A stretch of DNA of 64,000 bases from Paracoccaceae bacterium (GTDB lineage: Bacteria > Pseudomonadota > Alphaproteobacteria > Rhodobacterales > Rhodobacteraceae), in assembly GCA_024636555.1 (NCBI GenBank), contig JAGXGW010000067.1, positions 1 through 64,000 of the forward strand. The letters run 5' to 3'. Both the position numbers and the translations under genes were made by a program. Numbering within the stretch: position 1 is the first letter of the stretch; each line of letters begins with the position of its first letter. Below the pieces are notes generated by a model. The model was not told the DNA's origin. It saw only the letters and a list, made by a program, of their open reading frames with translations, and ran no database searches. Shown here in pieces: positions 31,787 through 45,203 of the stretch.

Positions 31787-33802
31787 ATGAGCGTTGATCC
31801 CAAGGTTGACCCGAAGTCTCCGGCGGCGAAAGGTATCCCGACTTATGATCAGGTTGCCATTGACGGCTCCAGCCCCGCCGAGCGTATCAGCGGCGTCGCG
31901 CGATGGGTCGTGATGGGCGGCACGCTGGCAGGGCTGGTTCTGGTGGTCAATCAGCTGTTCAACCTGCAGGCCTTCGGGATCGTGCTGATTGACGGGCGCT
32001 ACCTTTATATCCTCGGTGGTCTGTTTCTGGCGCTGAGCTTTCTCATTTTCCAGTTGAAGGGTGGCAAAGGCGGCAAGCCGATGCTCATCGACTGGGCCTT
32101 GTTCGCGCTTTCCTTGGGTTGCACGGTCTATCTCAGCAATACCGCGCAGCAGAACCTGTCACAGGGCTGGGAATATGCGCCACCGCAGACGGCGCAATAT
32201 GTTGCGGTCCTGTTTTTCGTGCTGGTGCTGGAAGCCACGCGCCGGGCGGGCGGTCTTGTGCTGTTCACCATCGTGACGATTTTCGCATTCTACCCGACTT
32301 TCGCAGGCCATGTGCCCTCACCGCTGACCGGCTTTCAAAGCACGTTCATGCAGACGGTACCCTATCACATCTACTCGTCCGAGAGCAGTTTCGGCATCCC
32401 GATGAAAGCCTTCGGCGGTGTGGTGATCGGCTTCATCCTGTTCGGTGCCGTGCTGCAACGCACGGGCGGCGGGCAGTTCTTCAACGATCTGGCGCTTGGC
32501 CTTGTGGGAGGCTACCGCGGTGGCGCGGCGAAAGTCTCGATCTTCGCCAGCGGCTTCATGGGCTCGATGTCCGGCTCCGTCATCTCGAACGTGCTGACCA
32601 CGGGGGCGGTGTCGATCCCCGCCATGCGCAGAACCGGGTTTTCCGCCAAGACCGCCGCCGCGACCGAGGCTGTCGCCTCCACGGGTGGCGTGTTGATGCC
32701 GCCGATCATGGGGGCGACGGCCTTTATCATGGCCTCGTTCCTGTCGCGGCCCTATATCGATATTGCCCTTGCGGCGGCCATTCCGAGCATTCTGTTCTAC
32801 TGGGGCCTGTTCACCCAGATCGACGCCTATTCGGCCAAACGCGGGTTGCGTGGCCTGCCCAAGCCCGATCTGCCCGTCCTGCGTCAGGTCATGAAGGACG
32901 GCTGGCCCTATATCTTCGTCTTTGCGCTGCTGCTCTTCATGATGATCGGTCTGCGCCGCGAGACATCGGCGCCGTTCTACGCGACCGTGCTTTTGCTGGT
33001 GGTCAACCAGTTCCGCGCGAGCCACCGTCTGGATATGCAACGCCTCAGCAACATGATTGTCGGCGTGGGCATGGGACTGGCCGAACTGACAGCCATCCTG
33101 CTGGGTGTGGGCCTGATCGTGGGGTCGTTCTCGGCCACCGGACTGGCGGGCACATTGGTCAATGATCTGGTCTTCATCGCCGGTGACGACACGCTGATCC
33201 TGTTGCTGATGGGGGCGATCACCGCCTTTGTCTTCGGCATGGGGATGACCGTCACGGCCTGTTACATCTTTCTGGCCGTCGTGCTGGCCCCCGCGCTGGA
33301 AGCGGGCGGGCTGAACACCCTCGCAGTGCATCTGTTCATCCTCTACTGGGGCATGGTCAGCTTCATCACGCCGCCTGTGGCTTTGGGGGCTTTTGCCGCC
33401 TCGAGCATGGCCGGATCGAACCCGTTCGCAACCGGCGTCGAGGCCATGCGTCTGGGGGGTGTCATCTACATCATGCCGTTCTTCTTCGTCCTCAACCCCG
33501 CCCTGATCGGACAAGCTCCTGCTTGGGAGGTGATTGTCGCGACCTCTTGCGCCTTGGTCGGGATTGCCATGATCTCGTCCGCGCTGCAGGGCTACGTCAG
33601 CCTTGTTGGCCCGATCAGGGGGGTGTTTGCGTTGCCGCTCAGGATCATGATGTTCTTCGGCGGCATGTTGATCGCCAAGCCCAAGACGGAACTTCTGGAC
33701 TTGAACTATGGCGAGTCCTTCCTGTTGGGGGCTGCGGTCTGTGCCTTGCCGATGTTCGTTGCATGGCGCGCGCGGCATGACCACACGCCAAGCCCGGCAT
33801 GA
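31787..33802 (+). CDS. TRAP transporter fused permease (small plus large subunits)
   Basis: This 671-aa polytopic membrane protein combines the four-helix small subunit (VVMGGTLAGLVLVVNQLFNLQ, YLYILGGLFLALSFLIFQL) with the 12-helix DctM-like large subunit (FGAVLQRTGGGQFFNDLALGLVGGYRGGAAKVSIFASGFMGSMSGS, then TGGVLMPPIMGATAFIMASF). Fused permeases are the normal partner of TAXI binding proteins and use a sodium gradient. An AAGGAAT site precedes the ATG at 31787. Downstream, the acyl-CoA synthetase follows after 61 bases on the same strand. Confidence 0.95.
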   Translation: MSVDPKVDPKSPAAKGIPTYDQVAIDGSSPAERISGVARWVVMGGTLAGLVLVVNQLFNLQAFGIVLIDGRYLYILGGLFLALSFLIFQLKGGKGGKPMLIDWALFALSLGCTVYLSNTAQQNLSQGWEYAPPQTAQYVAVLFFVLVLEATRRAGGLVLFTIVTIFAFYPTFAGHVPSPLTGFQSTFMQTVPYHIYSSESSFGIPMKAFGGVVIGFILFGAVLQRTGGGQFFNDLALGLVGGYRGGAAKVSIFASGFMGSMSGSVISNVLTTGAVSIPAMRRTGFSAKTAAATEAVASTGGVLMPPIMGATAFIMASFLSRPYIDIALAAAIPSILFYWGLFTQIDAYSAKRGLRGLPKPDLPVLRQVMKDGWPYIFVFALLLFMMIGLRRETSAPFYATVLLLVVNQFRASHRLDMQRLSNMIVGVGMGLAELTAILLGVGLIVGSFSATGLAGTLVNDLVFIAGDDTLILLLMGAITAFVFGMGMTVTACYIFLAVVLAPALEAGGLNTLAVHLFILYWGMVSFITPPVALGAFAASSMAGSNPFATGVEAMRLGGVIYIMPFFFVLNPALIGQAPAWEVIVATSCALVGIAMISSALQGYVSLVGPIRGVFALPLRIMMFFGGMLIAKPKTELLDLNYGESFLLGAAVCALPMFVAWRARHDHTPSPA

Positions 33803-38080: not shown

Positions 38081-39817
38081 ATGCGCGTTGCCTTACCCTT
38101 CGACACATTCACGACGCGCGGATCACGCCCTTTGTTCGGTTTGCTTGCCCCGTGGATGATGGCGGCCGTCTTTGGCATTGCGGCGGGTCCAGGCGGCTTT
38201 GCGGTCGCGCAGACGCAGGAGGCCGGTCTGGCGCAGTCGCAGGGCCAGCTTCTGACGCCGCTGCAATCACAGTCATTTTCCCAAGCGCGCGACCAATTCC
38301 GCGTCACCGCTTTTCATCAAGCGATTGCCGAGGCTGCGGCCTCTGACAAGGACATCGCCCAGTTCTATCGCGAGTCCGGTTATGCAGCGGTCTGGACCGG
38401 CACCGAGGACGCCTCTGTCGCGCGCCGTCGCGCCCTGATGCAGGCGATCGCGGATGCGGACGAGCACGGCTTGCCGCCTGCGCGCTACCGTGGCAATGCG
38501 CTGATGGAGGCGATGCGGTCCGCGCAGACGCCGCGTGATCTGGGATTGCTCGAGGTGGAAATGTCGCGCAGCCTGCTGCGTCTGGCCCGCGATCTGCAAA
38601 CAGGGCTGGTGACACCGTCCGATGTGGACAAGGGCATCGTCCGCAAGGTTGCGCTTCGCGACCGTGTCGAGACTTTGGGCCGCTTTGTCGAGAGCACGCC
38701 CAGCAGCTTTTTCCGCACGCTGGCCCCGACGACGGCGGAATATACCCGTCTGATGAAGGAAAAGATGCGCCTCGAGCGGCTTTTGGGGCAGGGCGGTTGG
38801 GGCCTGACGGTTCCCGCCAATGCGCTGGCCCCCGGAGACAGCGGCGCGTCTGTTGTGGCCCTGCGGAACCGGCTGATCGCCATGGGATACCTGTCGCGCA
38901 GCGCCTCGCAGGAGTATGATATGGCCTTGCAGACAGCGCTGCAGGCGTTCCAGACCGATCACGGTCTTTTGGCCGATGGTGTGGCCGGGGCGGGCACGCT
39001 GACGGAAATCAACGTGCCGGTTGAGGATCGCCTGAAGTCGGTGATCGTCGCGATGGAGCGTGAGCGCTGGCTGGGCGAAGAGCGCGGCAAGCGGCATATC
39101 CTCGTCAATCTGACGGATTTCCACTCCAAGATCATCGACGATGACCGGATCACCTTTGTCACCCGCTCAGTGATCGGGGCGCAGGACCCGGCCAAGCAGA
39201 CGCCGGAATTCTCGGACATGATGCAATATCTGGAGATCAATCCCGACTGGACCGTCCCGCGTGGCATCATCCAGCGTGATTATCTGCCCGCACTGCAGCG
39301 CAACCCCAATGCGCTTGGCCATCTTGAGGTCACCGATGCACGGGGCCGTGTCGTGCCGCGCGGCGCGGTCGATTTCTCGCGCTACACGGCGCGCACCTTT
39401 CCGTTCAACCTGCGCCAACCGCCGGGACGGACCAATGCGCTGGGGACCGTCAAGTTCATGTTCCCCAACCCCTATGCGATCTATCTGCATGACACGCCTG
39501 ACCGTCATTTGTTCGCACGCGAAAGCCGCGCCTATTCCTCGGGCTGCGTGCGTCTGAACGATCCGCATGACTTTGCCTATGTGCTGCTGGCGCGTCAGGA
39601 AGCCGATCCCAAGACGTTTTTCGACCAGATTCTGAACTCTGGCCGGCAGACCCGCGTGAACCTGACAGAGCCTGTGCCGGTGCATCTGATCTACCGCACC
39701 GCCTTCACCACCCCCAAGGGCAAGACCAATTTCCGGCGTGACGTTTACGGACGTGACACAAAGATATGGGAAGCGCTTGAGCGGGCAGGGGTGGAACTGC
39801 GCGCGGTTCGGGGGTAA
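38081..39817 (+). CDS. L,D-transpeptidase (YcbB-like, YkuD domain)
   Basis: This exported enzyme of 578 aa forms 3-3 cross-links or attaches proteins to peptidoglycan. The N-terminus has a hydrophobic signal (LAPWMMAAVFGIAAGPGGFAVAQ). An alpha-helical region follows, then a peptidoglycan-binding repeat (LAPGDSGASVVALRNRLIAMGYL, ALQAFQTDHGLLADGVAGAGTL). The YkuD catalytic domain ends in HDTPDRHLFARESRAYSSGC and VRLNDPHDFA with the His, Ser and Cys of the active site. The ORF track over-extends to 38012; the ATG at 38081 follows AGAAAGAGAA. lpxD starts 28 bases downstream. Confidence 0.93.
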   Translation: MRVALPFDTFTTRGSRPLFGLLAPWMMAAVFGIAAGPGGFAVAQTQEAGLAQSQGQLLTPLQSQSFSQARDQFRVTAFHQAIAEAAASDKDIAQFYRESGYAAVWTGTEDASVARRRALMQAIADADEHGLPPARYRGNALMEAMRSAQTPRDLGLLEVEMSRSLLRLARDLQTGLVTPSDVDKGIVRKVALRDRVETLGRFVESTPSSFFRTLAPTTAEYTRLMKEKMRLERLLGQGGWGLTVPANALAPGDSGASVVALRNRLIAMGYLSRSASQEYDMALQTALQAFQTDHGLLADGVAGAGTLTEINVPVEDRLKSVIVAMERERWLGEERGKRHILVNLTDFHSKIIDDDRITFVTRSVIGAQDPAKQTPEFSDMMQYLEINPDWTVPRGIIQRDYLPALQRNPNALGHLEVTDARGRVVPRGAVDFSRYTARTFPFNLRQPPGRTNALGTVKFMFPNPYAIYLHDTPDRHLFARESRAYSSGCVRLNDPHDFAYVLLARQEADPKTFFDQILNSGRQTRVNLTEPVPVHLIYRTAFTTPKGKTNFRRDVYGRDTKIWEALERAGVELRAVRG

Positions 39818-39845
39818 ATCTGCCCCGTCAGGAACGGGGGCCAGC

Positions 39846-40937
39846 ATGAGCTACACGGTGAAAGAGATTGCAGCGGCGCTGGGGGCAGAGGCTTTCGGCG
39901 CCGTCGATCTGCGGGTCTCGGGCGTGGCCGAGCCTGCGACGGCAGGCAGGGATCATCTGGCGCTGGCGATGTCGCCGAAATATGCCGAAGGCCTGCCGCT
40001 TGGGCAGGCCCGCGCCGCGATGCTGTGGCAGGGGGCCGACTGGCAGGCGCTGGGGCTTGAGGCAGCGATTGTAGCGCCGCGTCCGCGCTATGCCATGTCG
40101 GGCCTCAGCGCGATGATGGACCCTGGCGAGGGGTTCGGCGCGGGTATCCATCCTTCCGCCGTGATCGACCCTGCCGCGCTGATCGGGGCGGGTGTCAGCA
40201 TCGGTGCGTTGGCGGTGATCGGGCCGCGCGCGCAGATCGGGGCCGGCTGCGTGATCGGGCCGCAATGCTATATCGGGGCCGATGCCGTGCTGGGCGAGGC
40301 CGCGTTTCTGCGCGAAGGCGTGCGGCTGGCGGCACGGGTCCGCATCGGGGCGCGGTTCTTTGCCCATCCCGGTGCCGTGGTGGGCGCGGACGGCTTTTCC
40401 TTTGTGACGCCCGAAGCCTCCGGCGTGGAGAATGTCCGCCAGACCTTGGGCGATCAGGGCGGTGCCGCGCCGCAATCATGGGCGCGCATCCACTCGCTGG
40501 GCTCCGTGCGGATCGGCGATGATGTGGAACTGGGCGCGAACAGTTGCATCGACCGCGGCACCGTGCGCGATACGCAGGTGGGACACCGGGTCAAGTTCGA
40601 CAATCTGGTGCATATCGGGCATAACGTTGTCATCGGTAACGATTGTCTGATCTGCGGTCAGGTCGGGATCGCGGGGTCCACCGTGGTGGGCAACAACGTG
40701 GTGCTGGCCGGTCAGACGGGGGTGAGCGACAACCTGTCCATCGGGGATAATGTGATCACCGGCGGGGCGACCAAGGTGATGTCCAACGTGCCTGCGGGCC
40801 GTGTCATGCTGGGCTATCCGGCGGTGAAAATGGACAGCCATATCGAAAGTTACAAGGCGCTGCGCCGGTTGCCGCGCCTGTTCCGCGACGTCGCCGCGCT
40901 TCAGAAATCGGTTTTCAAAGCGGGCGGCAGTGACTAA
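39846..40937 (+). CDS. lpxD: UDP-3-O-(3-hydroxyacyl)glucosamine N-acyltransferase
   Basis: LpxD adds the second (N-linked) 3-hydroxyacyl chain in lipid A synthesis. The 363-aa protein has the N-terminal uridine-binding domain (YTVKEIAAALGAE) and a left-handed beta-helix of hexapeptide repeats (IHPSAVIDPAALIGAGVSIG onward). The catalytic His is in FDNLVHIGHNVVIG, and GVSDNLSIGDNVITGGATKV is family-typical. The ORF track starts at 39738 inside the previous gene; the ATG at 39846 gives the right N-terminus. It is unusual in standing with an acyl carrier protein and ketoacyl synthase rather than in a bamA-fabZ-lpxA cluster. Confidence 0.94.
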   Translation: MSYTVKEIAAALGAEAFGAVDLRVSGVAEPATAGRDHLALAMSPKYAEGLPLGQARAAMLWQGADWQALGLEAAIVAPRPRYAMSGLSAMMDPGEGFGAGIHPSAVIDPAALIGAGVSIGALAVIGPRAQIGAGCVIGPQCYIGADAVLGEAAFLREGVRLAARVRIGARFFAHPGAVVGADGFSFVTPEASGVENVRQTLGDQGGAAPQSWARIHSLGSVRIGDDVELGANSCIDRGTVRDTQVGHRVKFDNLVHIGHNVVIGNDCLICGQVGIAGSTVVGNNVVLAGQTGVSDNLSIGDNVITGGATKVMSNVPAGRVMLGYPAVKMDSHIESYKALRRLPRLFRDVAALQKSVFKAGGSD

Positions 40938-40994
40938 ATCGGCAACGCAGCCCCGCAAGGGCCGTATGCCGCATCGCATGTGAAAGGCCTATCC

Positions 40995-41258
40995 ATGAGC
41001 ATTCAGGACCGTGTCATCGCCATCATCGCCGAACAGGCCGTGTTGGACCCGTCGGACGTGACCCCGGACAGCACGCTCGAAGACCTTGGCATCGACAGTC
41101 TGGGGCTGGTCGAGAGCATCTTCGCCATCGAGGAGGCGTTCGATATCAACGTGCCATTCAACGCCAACGCGCCGGAGGAATCCGATTTCGATATTTCCAC
41201 GGTCGCCTCGATCGTGGCCGGAATCGAAAAGCTGGTGGCAGAACAGGGCAAGTCGTGA
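40995..41258 (+). CDS. Acyl carrier protein, specialised type
   Basis: This 87-aa acyl carrier protein has the phosphopantetheine site LGIDSLGLVES (Ser near residue 35) and the following helix FAIEEAFDINVPF. It is not the housekeeping AcpP, whose motif is DSLDTVELVMALE; the pattern GIDSL...FAIEEAF...I-x-P is closer to AcpXL-type carriers for very long or special acyl chains. The ORF track starts at GTG 40980; the ATG at 40995 follows AAAGG by seven bases. Its stop overlaps the next start, coupling it to the ketoacyl synthase. Confidence 0.9.
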   Translation: MSIQDRVIAIIAEQAVLDPSDVTPDSTLEDLGIDSLGLVESIFAIEEAFDINVPFNANAPEESDFDISTVASIVAGIEKLVAEQGKS

Positions 41259-42463
41259 AACGCGTTGTCATTACCGGCGCGGGCACGATCAACGCGCTGG
41301 GAAACGATGTGGCCGAAACGCTGGCGGCCATGCGCGCCGGGCGCTGCGGTATCGGCCCGCTGGAATTCCGCGATGTTGACCGTCTGGCGATCCAGATCGG
41401 CGGCCAGATCAAGGGGTTCGAGGCGGAAGGGCATTTCAACCGCCAGCAGATGACGCTTTACGACCGCTTCACCCAGTTTACCCTGATGGCCGCGCGCGAA
41501 GCGATCACGCAATCGGGTCTGGTGTTCGAGGGCGAACTGGCCAACCGCGCCGGTGTGGTACTGGGCACGGCGGGTGGCGGGGTCAGCACATGGGATGACA
41601 ATTACCGCGCTGTCTATGAAGAGGGCAAGAACCGCGTACATCCTTTCGTGGTGCCCAAGCTGATGATGAACGCCGCCGCCTCGCATGTCTCGATGGAATA
41701 CAACCTGCGCGGCCCCAGCTTTACCGTCTCGACCGCTTGCGCCTCGTCCAACCATGCCATGGCGCAGGCCTTCCAGATGGTGCGCTCAGGGATGAGTCCA
41801 GCCATGATCACGGGCGGGTCGGAATCCATGCTGTGTTTCGGCGGGATCAAGGCGTGGGAAGGGCTGCGCGTCATGTCACGCGACGCCTGCCGCCCGTTCT
41901 CGGCCAATCGCAACGGCCTTGTGCAGGGCGAGGGCGCGGGGATTTTTGTGTTCGAGGAATACGAGCATGCCCGCGCGCGCGGTGCCGAGATCTTGGCCGA
42001 GGTCTCGGGTTTCGCGATGACCTCGGATGCGGCGGATATCGTGATGCCGTCCAAACAGGGGGCTGCCCGCGCAATGGCGGGCGCGCTGCGCGACGCCGGG
42101 ATCGCACCGGAAAAGGTGGGGTATATCAACGCCCATGGCACCGGCACGGCGGCCAATGACAAAACCGAATGCGCCGCAGTGGCGGATGTGTTCGGCCAGC
42201 ATGCGGACAGGCTGATGATCTCGTCCACCAAGTCGATGCACGGCCATCTGATCGGGGCCACGGGCGCTGTGGAGCTACTGGCCTGCATCATGGCCCTGCG
42301 CGACGGGGTGATCGCGCCGACCATCGGCTACGAGGAGTTTGACCCCGAATGCGCGCTGGACGTGGTGCCAAACGAGGCGCGCGACGCATCTGTCGAGGTG
42401 GCGCTGTCGAACGCCTTCGCCTTCGGCGGGCTGAACGCCGTGATCGCCCTTCGCAAGGTCTGA
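41255..42463 (+). CDS. Beta-ketoacyl-ACP synthase, FabF family
   Basis: This 402-aa KAS II-type condensing enzyme elongates acyl chains on an ACP. The active-site Cys is in FTVSTACASSNHAMAQAF, and the two catalytic histidines are in YINAHGTGTAANDKTE and STKSMHGHLIGATGAVE. The start GTG overlaps the stop of the specialised ACP by four bases. With lpxD upstream, this suggests a dedicated route that makes or extends an acyl chain for lipid A or another envelope lipid; that is an inference. It is followed by a clear terminator. Confidence 0.92.
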   Translation: MKRVVITGAGTINALGNDVAETLAAMRAGRCGIGPLEFRDVDRLAIQIGGQIKGFEAEGHFNRQQMTLYDRFTQFTLMAAREAITQSGLVFEGELANRAGVVLGTAGGGVSTWDDNYRAVYEEGKNRVHPFVVPKLMMNAAASHVSMEYNLRGPSFTVSTACASSNHAMAQAFQMVRSGMSPAMITGGSESMLCFGGIKAWEGLRVMSRDACRPFSANRNGLVQGEGAGIFVFEEYEHARARGAEILAEVSGFAMTSDAADIVMPSKQGAARAMAGALRDAGIAPEKVGYINAHGTGTAANDKTECAAVADVFGQHADRLMISSTKSMHGHLIGATGAVELLACIMALRDGVIAPTIGYEEFDPECALDVVPNEARDASVEVALSNAFAFGGLNAVIALRKV

Positions 42464-42566: not shown

Positions 42567-43187
42567 TCACTCTGTCGGTACAGGGATCTTGTCATAGCCC
42601 GCGGTAAAGCCGGTCAGCGACATGGTGACCTCGACAAGTTCGTCGGGTGCGACGAATGGCACAAGGGTGACCGTTGCCGCCGTGCCGCGCTTGTAGGCGG
42701 CAATATCCTCTTGCGTCAGGCCGATGCGCGCGTAGCAACCCTGACGGTCGCAGACGGAGAAAGGATAGCGCTTCGGCTGGCCGCCATTGACGGTGATTGT
42801 CAGCTGTGCGGTCAGCAGTGTTTCCAGCGGCACGGCCACAAGTGCACCGGCCACAGCCTGTCCGCCGGCGGGCAGTTTGAACATGCGGACATTGGCGACC
42901 TGATTGTCCTCGTCATCGGTCAGGGTCTGCACGATCTGGCAGGGCTCCTCACCTTCGGGAACCCGCAGGCATTCCAGCGCCCAGTCACCCGAGACCTCGC
43001 GGATGTAGGGCTCCACGCCGGGCGTATTGTCCTGCACCTCCTCGCCCATGGCCAGCCCGGGATCTGCTGCGGGCGCGGCGGGGGCGGGCTGTTCTTCCGC
43101 AGGGGCGGGGGTGGTGTCCTGCGCGAAGGCAGGAGAGGCCACCGCAAGAGCAGCGATGATGGAAATGCGGGTGAAAAGATTGGGCAT
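42567..43187 (-). CDS. Invasion-associated locus B (IalB) family exported protein
   Basis: This 206-aa periplasmic protein has a signal peptide MPNLFTRISIIAALAVASPAFA-QD, then a Pro/Ala-rich linker (TTPAPAEEQPAPAAPAADP) and an IalB-like domain: VSGDWALECLRVPEGEEPCQIVQ, PLETLLTAQLTITVNGG and FSVCDRQGCYARIGL. The four cysteines suggest two disulfides. Many free-living alphaproteobacteria carry several such proteins of unknown function; the name does not imply virulence. The ORF track starts at 43235; the ATG at 43187 begins the signal peptide. Confidence 0.85.
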   Translation of the reverse strand: MPNLFTRISIIAALAVASPAFAQDTTPAPAEEQPAPAAPAADPGLAMGEEVQDNTPGVEPYIREVSGDWALECLRVPEGEEPCQIVQTLTDDEDNQVANVRMFKLPAGGQAVAGALVAVPLETLLTAQLTITVNGGQPKRYPFSVCDRQGCYARIGLTQEDIAAYKRGTAATVTLVPFVAPDELVEVTMSLTGFTAGYDKIPVPTE

Positions 43188-43343
43188 GTTTTCCTGTCCT
43201 GTTTCTGGAAATTCGATTTTTCGGCGATTTAGCATGTCGGCCGGCCGATGTCAGGATGCAATTGTTCAGCGCAGCAAAACAAGGGCGGAAAGCTGCCTGA
43301 AGCATTGCATCAGCAAGCCCACGGAAGTCATGGGCAATAAACT

Positions 43344-43380
43344 AAAAAAGGGGCCGAGAGGCCCCTTTTCGTCTTTTTTT
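43344..43380. terminator. Strong bidirectional Rho-independent terminator
   Basis: AAAAGGGGCC-GAGA-GGCCCCTTTT is followed on the plus strand by CGTCTTTTTTT and on the minus strand by TTAG, with a six-T run formed partly by the stem. No annotated gene on either strand ends immediately before it, so it may terminate an unannotated transcript or protect the IalB-like gene from read-through. Confidence 0.8.
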
Positions 43381-43480
43381 ATGCTCCCCGTCGGACTGGC
43401 CGACTTAATCATTGTCGTGACGCTAATTTGAATTGATGCATCGGTCAACAGGCAAGGGTTCACAATTTTGTCTCAAATCG

Positions 43481-43584
43481 AAAAAAGACCGCGTCCGGGG
43501 ACGCGGCCAGTCTGACAGGGAGGAAAAGCCCCGAAAACCGCCAGTGGTGCAGCAATCGGGGCAAAATCAGTATGGCACACAAGT
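43481..43584 (-). ncRNA. Candidate small regulatory RNA, about 104 nt
   Basis: On the minus strand a promoter TTGCGG-N18-TACAAT (43620-43591) would start RNA near 43584. The predicted RNA has a 5' single-stranded stretch, a hairpin closed by GCCCCGA/TCGGGGC (43562-43528) with a 21-base loop, an unpaired pyrimidine-rich linker TTTTCCTCCCTGTC that is complementary to a Shine-Dalgarno sequence, and a final hairpin CCGCGT/ACGCGG followed by TCTTTTTT, a classic Rho-independent terminator. No open reading frame explains it. All elements are read directly; transcription is predicted. Confidence 0.55.
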
Positions 43585-43658
43585 GTTAAGATTGTATCTT
43601 CACCCCTGATCCTGCCGCAATTGACGCGGGCAGGCCGGAGCATTCAAAGGGGCGGATT

Positions 43659-45203
43659 GTGGAAGACTCGATTTTTGTGGGCGGTGACGGCGCGGATTAC
43701 GGCACCAGTCAGAACATGTTGTTGCGCTATGCCAACCGTCACGGGCTGATCGCTGGCGCGACAGGCACCGGCAAGACGGTGACCTTGCAAATCCTCGCCG
43801 AGGGGTTCTCGGCTGCGGGTGTGCCTGTCTTCATGTCGGATGTGAAGGGCGATCTGTCCGGCCTTGCCCTGCCGGGCGATCCGATGGGCAAACTGCACGG
43901 GCCGTTCACCTCCCGCGCCAAGACCATCGGTTTCGACGATTACACCTATAATGCCTTTCCGGTCGCCTTCTGGGACATGTTCGGCGAGCAGGGCCATCCT
44001 GTCCGTACCACCGTGGCAGAGATGGGGCCGCTGCTGCTAAGCCGCCTGCTGGAACTGACCGAGGCGCAGGAGGGCATTCTGAACATCGCCTTCCGGCTGG
44101 CCGACGAGCAGGGAATGGCTTTGCTGGATCTCAAGGATCTGCAGGCCTTTCTGGTCTGGATCGGCGAGAACCGCGCCGAGATTTCCCTGCTCTACGGCAA
44201 TATCGCCGTGGCTTCGGTGGGGGCGATCCAGCGGCGGCTGATGGTGCTGGAAAATCAGGGCGGCACGCATTTCTTTGGCGAGCCTGCGCTGGAACTGGCC
44301 GATCTGATGCGCTGTGACGAGGACGGGCGCGGCATCGTCAATATCATGGCGGCGGACCGTCTGATGAACAGCCAGCGCCTTTATGCGACCTTCCTGCTGT
44401 GGCTGTTGTCCGAACTGTTCGAAACGCTGCCCGAAGTCGGCAATCCGCCCAAGCCCAAGCTGGTGTTCTTCTTCGACGAGGCACATCTGCTATTCAACGA
44501 CGCGCCCAAGGCGCTGGTAGACAAGGTCGAGCAGGTGGCGCGGCTGATCCGCTCCAAGGGCGTGGGCGTGTACTTCATCACGCAAAATCCGGGCGATGTG
44601 CCCGATACGATCCTTGGCCAGTTGGGCAACCGCGTGCAGCATGCCCTGCGCGCCTTCACGGGACGCGACCAGCAGGAGTTGCGCCGCGCCGCGATGACCT
44701 ATCGCAGCAATCCGGCCTTTGACACGGAAACCGCGATCCGCGAGGTCGGCACCGGCGAGGCGGTGACATCGCTGCTGGAGGACAAGGGCATTCCGGGTAT
44801 CGTCGAGCGCACGCTGATCCGGCCGCCATCCTCGAAACTCGGGCCGATCACGCAAGACCAGCGCGACATGCTGATCCGCACTTCCGCGCTTTACGGCAAA
44901 TATGAAACCCCGCTGGACCGCGATTCCGCCTATGAAGCCCTCAAGCGCGTCGCCGAAGAGGCCGCGCGAGAGGCCGAGGAGGCCGCCGCTGCCGAGGCGC
45001 AAGCGAAAGAGGAGGAACGCGCGTTCAAAGCCGCGCGCCGTTATCAGCCCAACACACCGGCCAAGCGCACCAGCAGCGCCCGCGCCCGCCAGCCCGAAAC
45101 GCTGGGCGAGGCGCTAGGTGCGGCGGTGATGAAGGAACTCAAGGGCACCACCGGCAGGCGCATCGTGCGCGGCCTGATGGGCGGGCTGTTCCGCGGTCGC
45201 TGA
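43659..45203 (+). CDS. HerA-like ATPase (DUF853 family)
   Basis: This 514-aa HerA/FtsK-type ATPase of the DUF853 family has [40 protein letters not shown] with Walker [22 protein letters not shown], Walker [13 protein letters not shown], a sensor-like [29 protein letters not shown] and a lysine/glutamate-rich C-terminal linker. The role is unclear; relatives are DNA-end-processing or pilus-type motor ATPases, but DUF853 members are found without partner nucleases, as here. The start is GTG at 43659 with AAAGG upstream. It is convergent with livM across a strong terminator. Confidence 0.9.

Follow-up and report, generated by a model that had tools for sequence, protein, structure and literature searches.

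Organisation of the locus

The window analysed here is a 64,000-nucleotide stretch of a Paracoccaceae genome (contig JAGXGW010000067.1), and the feature under study occupies the minus strand of a gap between a divergent HerA-like ATPase gene and an IalB-family gene. Two candidate RNA units, which we call RNA A and RNA B, follow one another in this gap on the strand of the IalB gene, and their coordinates, together with those of the flanking genes and the predicted signals, are collected in Table 1. Matches to the sequence pattern of RNA A recur in the same setting. A HerA-like gene lies on the opposite strand in 107 of the 119 listed loci, starting approximately 100-200 nt upstream of RNA A (544 nt in a single case), and an IalB-family gene lies downstream at the same relative position in almost all of them, at a distance that varies widely. 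Several of the loci without a HerA neighbour are truncated by the locus end, and a few (L103, L105 and L106) carry RNA A and IalB without HerA.

A run of LpxD-like, acyl-carrier-protein-like and FabF-type genes (39738-42463, plus strand) adjoins the IalB gene, and the order FabF-IalB-sRNA-HerA is kept in many relatives. The conserved promoter-like CTGACA-N17-TGCTAAAT block (43254-43227, minus strand) implies that the IalB protein starts at the ATG at 43185 and not at 43235.

Table 1. Genes, RNA units and predicted signals of the HerA-IalB intergenic region, in the order in which they are met on the minus strand
Feature	Positions	Strand	Evidence
HerA-like (HerA_C/DUF853) ATPase gene	43659..45203	+	divergent upstream flank; Pfam HerA_C 6e-219; synteny
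RNA A upstream element ATACAA-N2-TTAAC (-35 region, with TTAAC in the spacer)	43585..43597	-	information profile of loci anchored on TTAA: ATACA and TTAA(C) conserved, flanks not
RNA A putative extended -10 box TGCCATACT	43569..43577	-	TGnCAnnnT conserved
RNA A, ~82-nt predicted anti-Shine-Dalgarno sRNA	43481..43562	-	fold z -4.4; >100 syntenic loci; stem covariation; start placed from the -10 box
RNA A hairpin 1, GCCCCGA...TCGGGGC, 35 nt	43528..43562	-	stem in 150/151 loci; mean z -3.1; 124 different 5' arms
RNA A single-stranded linker UUUUCCUCCCUGUCAGACU, 19 nt	43509..43527	-	nearly invariant across loci; putative pairing site for mRNA and RNA B
alpha-r8 10-mer UUUCCUCCCU inside the linker	43526-43517	-	identical to the alpha-R8 10-mer of PMC12559287
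RNA A terminator: hairpin GGCCGCGTC/GGACGCGGTC, then a U tract	43481..43508	-	terminator scan; upper stem with C-G pairs replaced by U-A, CC pairs at the base invariant
RNA B putative promoter TTGACC-N17-TAGCGT	43420..43448	-	151 paired loci; -10 TA(g)C(g)T conserved at fixed spacing
RNA B, putative sponge/anti-sRNA	43342..43413	-	core in 110/150 family genera; start placed from the -10 box
RNA B core AAGTCGGCCAGTCCGACGGGGAG: hairpin GUCGG-CCAGU-CCGAC and GGGGAG	43384..43406	-	complementary to RNA A linker
RNA B terminator	43345..43370	-	terminator scan, 11-pair stem; hairpin at the same place across loci
Promoter-like CTGACA-N17-TGCTAAAT ahead of IalB gene	43227..43254	-	strict pattern in 48/151 loci, 0/143 in control region
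IalB-family gene	42567..43235	-	downstream flank; Pfam IalB 1.3e-35; synteny; likely start ATG 43185

RNA A, a conserved predicted small RNA of the Rhodobacteraceae

Read along the minus strand, the letters of RNA A give a hairpin, the linker TTTTCCTCCCTGTCAGACT, in which TTTCCTCCCT occupies 43526-43517, a GC-rich terminator hairpin and a final TCTTTTTT that ends at 43481. A first-pass annotation of this DNA had described just such a series of hairpin, UCCUCCC-type linker, terminator hairpin and U tract, and the sequence, the terminator scan and the fold of the 104-nt segment (-42.3 kcal/mol, z = -4.4, with 0 of 200 shuffles as good) all bear that description out.

A DNA similarity search of 41 whole genomes matched 17, all of them Rhodobacteraceae, while the exact linker and terminator-base pattern, which is blind to the neighbouring genes, was found in at least 119 stretches of the public genome collection, among them Rhodobacter capsulatus, Roseovarius, Sulfitobacter and Leisingera. 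A plasmid collection gave no match. The stems were tested locus by locus and on a subset of equal length (RNAalifold, run on an unregistered alignment, gave no structure), and in the resulting 28-sequence alignment 85.5% of cells are paired as against 40-48% when the sequences are slid, and the two stems carry compensatory changes, with a covariation of 0.324 against 0.223 for shuffles (0 of 500). We conclude from these comparisons that the RNA A unit is real and widely conserved in the Rhodobacteraceae, beyond what chance would give. The best reading of its sequence is that of a trans-acting anti-Shine-Dalgarno sRNA, as the first-pass annotation had it, now with conservation in more than 100 syntenic loci.

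A second motif of the CCUCC/UCCUC type was noted in the hairpin-1 segment of 86 of 151 relatives (L007, L009 and L017, for example); the window copy is without it.

The promoter region of RNA A

Transcription of RNA A had been attributed to a promoter TTGCGG-N18-TACAAT, which we could not recover: a sigma-70 scan found none, and the TTGCGG (43620-43615) falls where the loci show no conservation. TACAAT (43596-43591) does belong to a conserved block but is misplaced as a -10 box, sitting in the -35 region and being followed by a putative extended -10 box at 43577-43569. The conserved pattern is (A)TACA-N3-TTAAC with an extended -10 TGnCAnnnT, where the loci of the profile were anchored on TTAA, so that the conservation of TTAA is itself the anchor. 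The information profile of these anchored loci gives frequencies of 0.68 for the T, 0.87 for the G, 0.95 for the A and 0.90 for the final T of TGnCAnnnT. This box follows ATACAA at 17 nt, counted hexamer to hexamer, and precedes hairpin 1 by approximately 7 nt. This last spacing puts the likely 5' end near 43562 and the length of RNA A at about 82 nt, not the 104 nt originally proposed. Relatives that keep the HerA-like gene thus share the stems and a promoter-like block but not the TTGCGG promoter that had been named.

TTAAC (43589-43585, minus strand), in the spacer of the predicted promoter, is highly conserved in most loci and is possibly the site of a regulator; CtrA, RpoH and sigma-54 sites, sought by eye in the TTAAC/TGCCA block, gave nothing convincing.

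Relationship of RNA A to the MmgR/alpha-r8, SorX and SorY RNAs

At gathering score, Rfam returned no match across the window but a tRNA. The covariance models nearest to RNA A all score under their cut-offs: RF00519 (MmgR/alpha-r8) at 33.5 bits (E 3.4e-5, cut-off 41), SorX (RF02784) at 25.8 bits in the window copy (27.7 and 39.2 bits in relatives; cut-off 46.6), and SorY (RF02651) at 20.3 bits (cut-off 111). The RNA that the first-pass annotation did not recognise can thus be placed as a diverged member of this group, below every Rfam threshold. Weak matches to sraA, STnc40 and anti-hemB were dismissed as terminator-like chance matches.

The likenesses are divided between the known families. 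RNA A shares with the alphaproteobacterial MmgR/suhB/alpha-r8 RNAs (RF00519), including SisA-D, the two hairpins joined by UUUCCUCCCU and the Rho-independent terminator; as in the published definition of alpha-r8 (PMC12559287), TTTCCTCCCT is unpaired in the fold, lies downstream of a hairpin and is followed by such a terminator. The window copy carries the 10-mer exactly, while most relatives at the locus carry CUUCCUCCCU, which is one letter off. RNA A differs from RF00519 in having a longer hairpin 1 and a linker that continues GUCAGACUGGCCG instead of AGACUUGGGCCG. The RF00519 RNAs are also usually, though not universally, encoded beside an N-formylglutamate amidohydrolase gene, whereas RNA A is flanked by HerA_C and IalB in nearly all loci. 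With SorX and SorY it has in common the linker and terminator base CCUCCCUGU-N2-GACU-GGCC, but reads GUCAGAC where they have GUUGGAC, and while SorX is processed from the 3' end of an ompR-type mRNA, RNA A stands beside a divergent gene with a conserved promoter-like block of its own.

It could be argued that RNA A is nothing more than a canonical alpha-r8/MmgR orthologue that has diverged within the Rhodobacteraceae, and that it represents no separate lineage, as its exact 10-mer, its two-hairpin layout and the RF00519 E value of 3e-5 would suggest, and this would be compatible with the sponge explanation developed below. We think it unlikely, since canonical RF00519 members that exceed the cut-off are present at other loci in 15 of the 150 family genera (L020-L034), and in one case a canonical copy (L028) and a HerA-linked RNA (L016) occur together in a single genome. 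Because canonical members occur at other loci, and once in the same genome, we assign RNA A by its sequence to a distinct lineage in the anti-Shine-Dalgarno superfamily of MmgR/alpha-r8, SorX and SorY, and file it under no single Rfam family.

We note separately that 15 of 150 genera with a canonical MmgR/alpha-r8 RNA is fewer than its published near-universal presence in Alphaproteobacteria suggests; the strict search filters may lose some.

A second unit, RNA B, downstream of RNA A

Reading the locus as a single RNA, as had been done, describes part of it correctly and is incomplete: the conserved unit is the sRNA together with a complementary RNA downstream, whose core typically lies 110-216 nt beyond the linker. 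What is new here is this RNA B, an equally conserved, predicted second transcription unit behind RNA A, of which we found no published description, nor any of the tandem, in the open-access papers searched. Between the RNA A terminator and the IalB gene there follow in order a promoter-like block, the core (43406-43384), an A-rich stretch and a terminator, and this unit is seen in nearly all loci examined. The 151 paired loci used for the comparison were chosen for TTGA[CT] before the RNA B core; the -10 box, which proved to be conserved, was not part of the selection.

The core pattern was found in 110 of 150 family genera, nearly always once, as compared to 3 matches for a reversed control pattern, and outside the Rhodobacteraceae there were just chance-like, GC-rich matches with a different loop. 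Thirteen of the 150 genera match the RNA A pattern without the strict RNA B pattern, and those inspected (G009, for example) carry variants of RNA B.

In nearly all loci RNA B lies between RNA A and the IalB gene and shares their strand, which might suggest that it is a 5' leader or attenuator of the IalB mRNA, with RNA A regulating IalB in cis. We regard this as very unlikely. A strong terminator stands between RNA B and the IalB gene, the distance to that gene varies widely, an admittedly unsystematic look revealed no conserved antiterminator, and a separate promoter-like CTGACA-N-TGCTA follows RNA B in 48 of 151 loci as against 0 of 143 controls. That the IalB gene has a promoter-like CTGACA-N17-TGCTAAAT of its own suggests that RNA B is not its leader.

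The GGGGAG of the core invites another reading, in which RNA B would be a short mRNA, GGGGAG the ribosome-binding site of a small peptide and RNA A its repressor. GGGAG does resemble a Shine-Dalgarno sequence and in the window copy an open frame runs across the core, yet a start codon at a suitable distance is present in just 51 of 151 loci, the median open frame is zero and conservation does not extend to the ATG preceding the core, so that we give this reading hardly any credence.

Complementarity between RNA A and RNA B

In the window, 18 of 19 positions pair between the RNA B core GUCGGCCAGUCCGACGGGGAG and the linker of RNA A, by 17 Watson-Crick pairs and one G-U, with one A-C mismatch. 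Besides RNA A itself, the 64 kb contain a single sequence close to the reverse complement of the linker, namely the RNA B core (0.02 such matches, allowing 3 mismatches, are expected by chance). The predicted duplex, at -37.5 kcal/mol, makes it the best partner for the linker in the window outside the complement of RNA A, by a few kcal/mol over the next-best segments in a GC-rich background. Across loci, the mean for RNA A with its own RNA B is -40.1 kcal/mol, against -23.5 kcal/mol for shuffled RNA B, and barely exceeds that of swapped pairs (-39.8 kcal/mol) because the cores of both RNAs are nearly invariant.

Where the partners do vary, there is some sign that they vary together. An AAG loop in RNA B accompanies ACUUGCC (in place of ACUGGCC) in RNA A at 12 of 15 loci, as compared to 8 of 136 loci otherwise (Fisher 2.6e-10); part of this variant set was sought on purpose, by RNA A alone. 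Placed on the HerA tree, the co-variation amounts to about 8 changes; most of the independent contrasts agree with the prediction or show no difference (1-2 against 0), and there are too few of them for significance. We take the co-variation as support, and not as proof, of pairing.

The part of RNA B that is most conserved is the part complementary to RNA A and to its SorX/SorY-type siblings, and we saw no other conserved unpaired region. This argues against the idea that RNA A is an ordinary sRNA and RNA B an independent one with targets of its own, related to RNA A by mutual degradation or by regulation of B by A and not by sponging. The idea draws on the promoter and terminator that RNA B appears to possess, on the fact that pairing sRNAs can act either way and on the observation that overexpression of SisA also lowered CrfA in Caulobacter (PMC12559287); we consider it improbable.

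Siblings of RNA A as predicted further partners of RNA B

The genome to which the window belongs (approximately 80% complete) has one other CCUCCCUGU[CU]NGAC motif, on contig 15 at 33.5 kb. This sibling (33500-33584, minus strand, locus L188) lies between genes that we name, from their sequences, LysR-type and purL-like; it scores 48.7 bits against SorX, over the cut-off of 46.6, and 55.6 bits (E 5e-11) against SorY, the cut-off of which is 111. RNA B is predicted to pair with it at -42.2 kcal/mol and with the SorX consensus at -38.6 kcal/mol, as compared to the value for RNA A given above, whereas its duplexes with canonical alpha-r8 RNAs are weaker, at about -20 to -22 kcal/mol. RNA B thus has the complementarity expected of a CrfA-like sponge, pairing at 18 of 19 positions with RNA A and at -38 to -42 kcal/mol with the SorX/SorY types.

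The 150 family genera contain 105 A-type motifs. Of these, 70 are followed on the same strand by an RNA B core 60-600 nt downstream, and 22 of the other 35 are of the GUUGGAC (SorY/SorX) type. Motif copies beside RNA B are mostly GUCAGAC and distant copies mostly GUUGGAC.

A model for the tandem

The explanation that we favour, and hold as a whole to be rather probable, is that two small-RNA genes with separate promoters and terminators stand here in tandem, one for the sRNA, RNA A, and one for a second RNA complementary to it, RNA B. RNA A, which is probably bound by Hfq, would use its single-stranded UUUUCCUCCCUGUC linker to pair with ribosome-binding sites and so repress the translation of several mRNAs; its CCUCCC linker, in other words, probably blocks these sites. 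The related SorX and SorY of Rhodobacter sphaeroides are Hfq-binding stress sRNAs (PMC9438474, PMC8307010), and SorX inhibits the translation of potA (PMC9438474).

RNA B, transcribed separately just downstream, would act as a sponge and probably sequesters RNA A and its siblings. We envisage that the exposed CCAGU loop of RNA B first contacts ACUGG at the base of the RNA A terminator, that its GGGGAG mimics a ribosome-binding site and that the duplex then zips over some 19 positions, by which the linker is covered and RNA A is removed. Nucleation between CCAGU and ACUGG would explain why the base of the RNA A terminator hardly varies while its upper stem does. Since the SorX/SorY-type siblings carry CUCCCUGUUGGACU, RNA B may bind them as well as RNA A or better, and would then be their common antagonist. 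In its widest form, that of RNA B as a family-wide master sponge of the CCUCCC sRNAs (RNA A and the SorX and SorY types, with their roles in stress and transport), set in tandem with one of them so that the regulator is inherited along with its antidote, we judge the proposal to be evenly poised.

Two known systems invite comparison. CrfA of Caulobacter crescentus is an Hfq-dependent sponge of several alpha-R8 siblings, SisA-D, acting through the CCUCCC core of the same 10-mer (PMC12559287). RNA B is putatively its like by complementarity, and differs from it in being encoded directly downstream of one partner and in its GUCGG/CCGAC hairpin. In Campylobacter, CJnc190 and CJnc180 are an sRNA and an antagonist RNA at the same locus, as RNA A and RNA B would be; the antagonist is described as cis-encoded (PMC8687705), whereas RNA A and RNA B are non-overlapping and share a strand.

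In the open-access literature we found no sponge described for SorX or SorY. If the model is true, some three quarters of the genera sampled in the Rhodobacteraceae, a large and ecologically important family, share a sponge that adds a layer of control to the SorX/SorY network, and the loss of RNA B should alter SorX and SorY activity. The CrfA-Sis arrangement, known from one species of Caulobacter, would then have a counterpart in another order.
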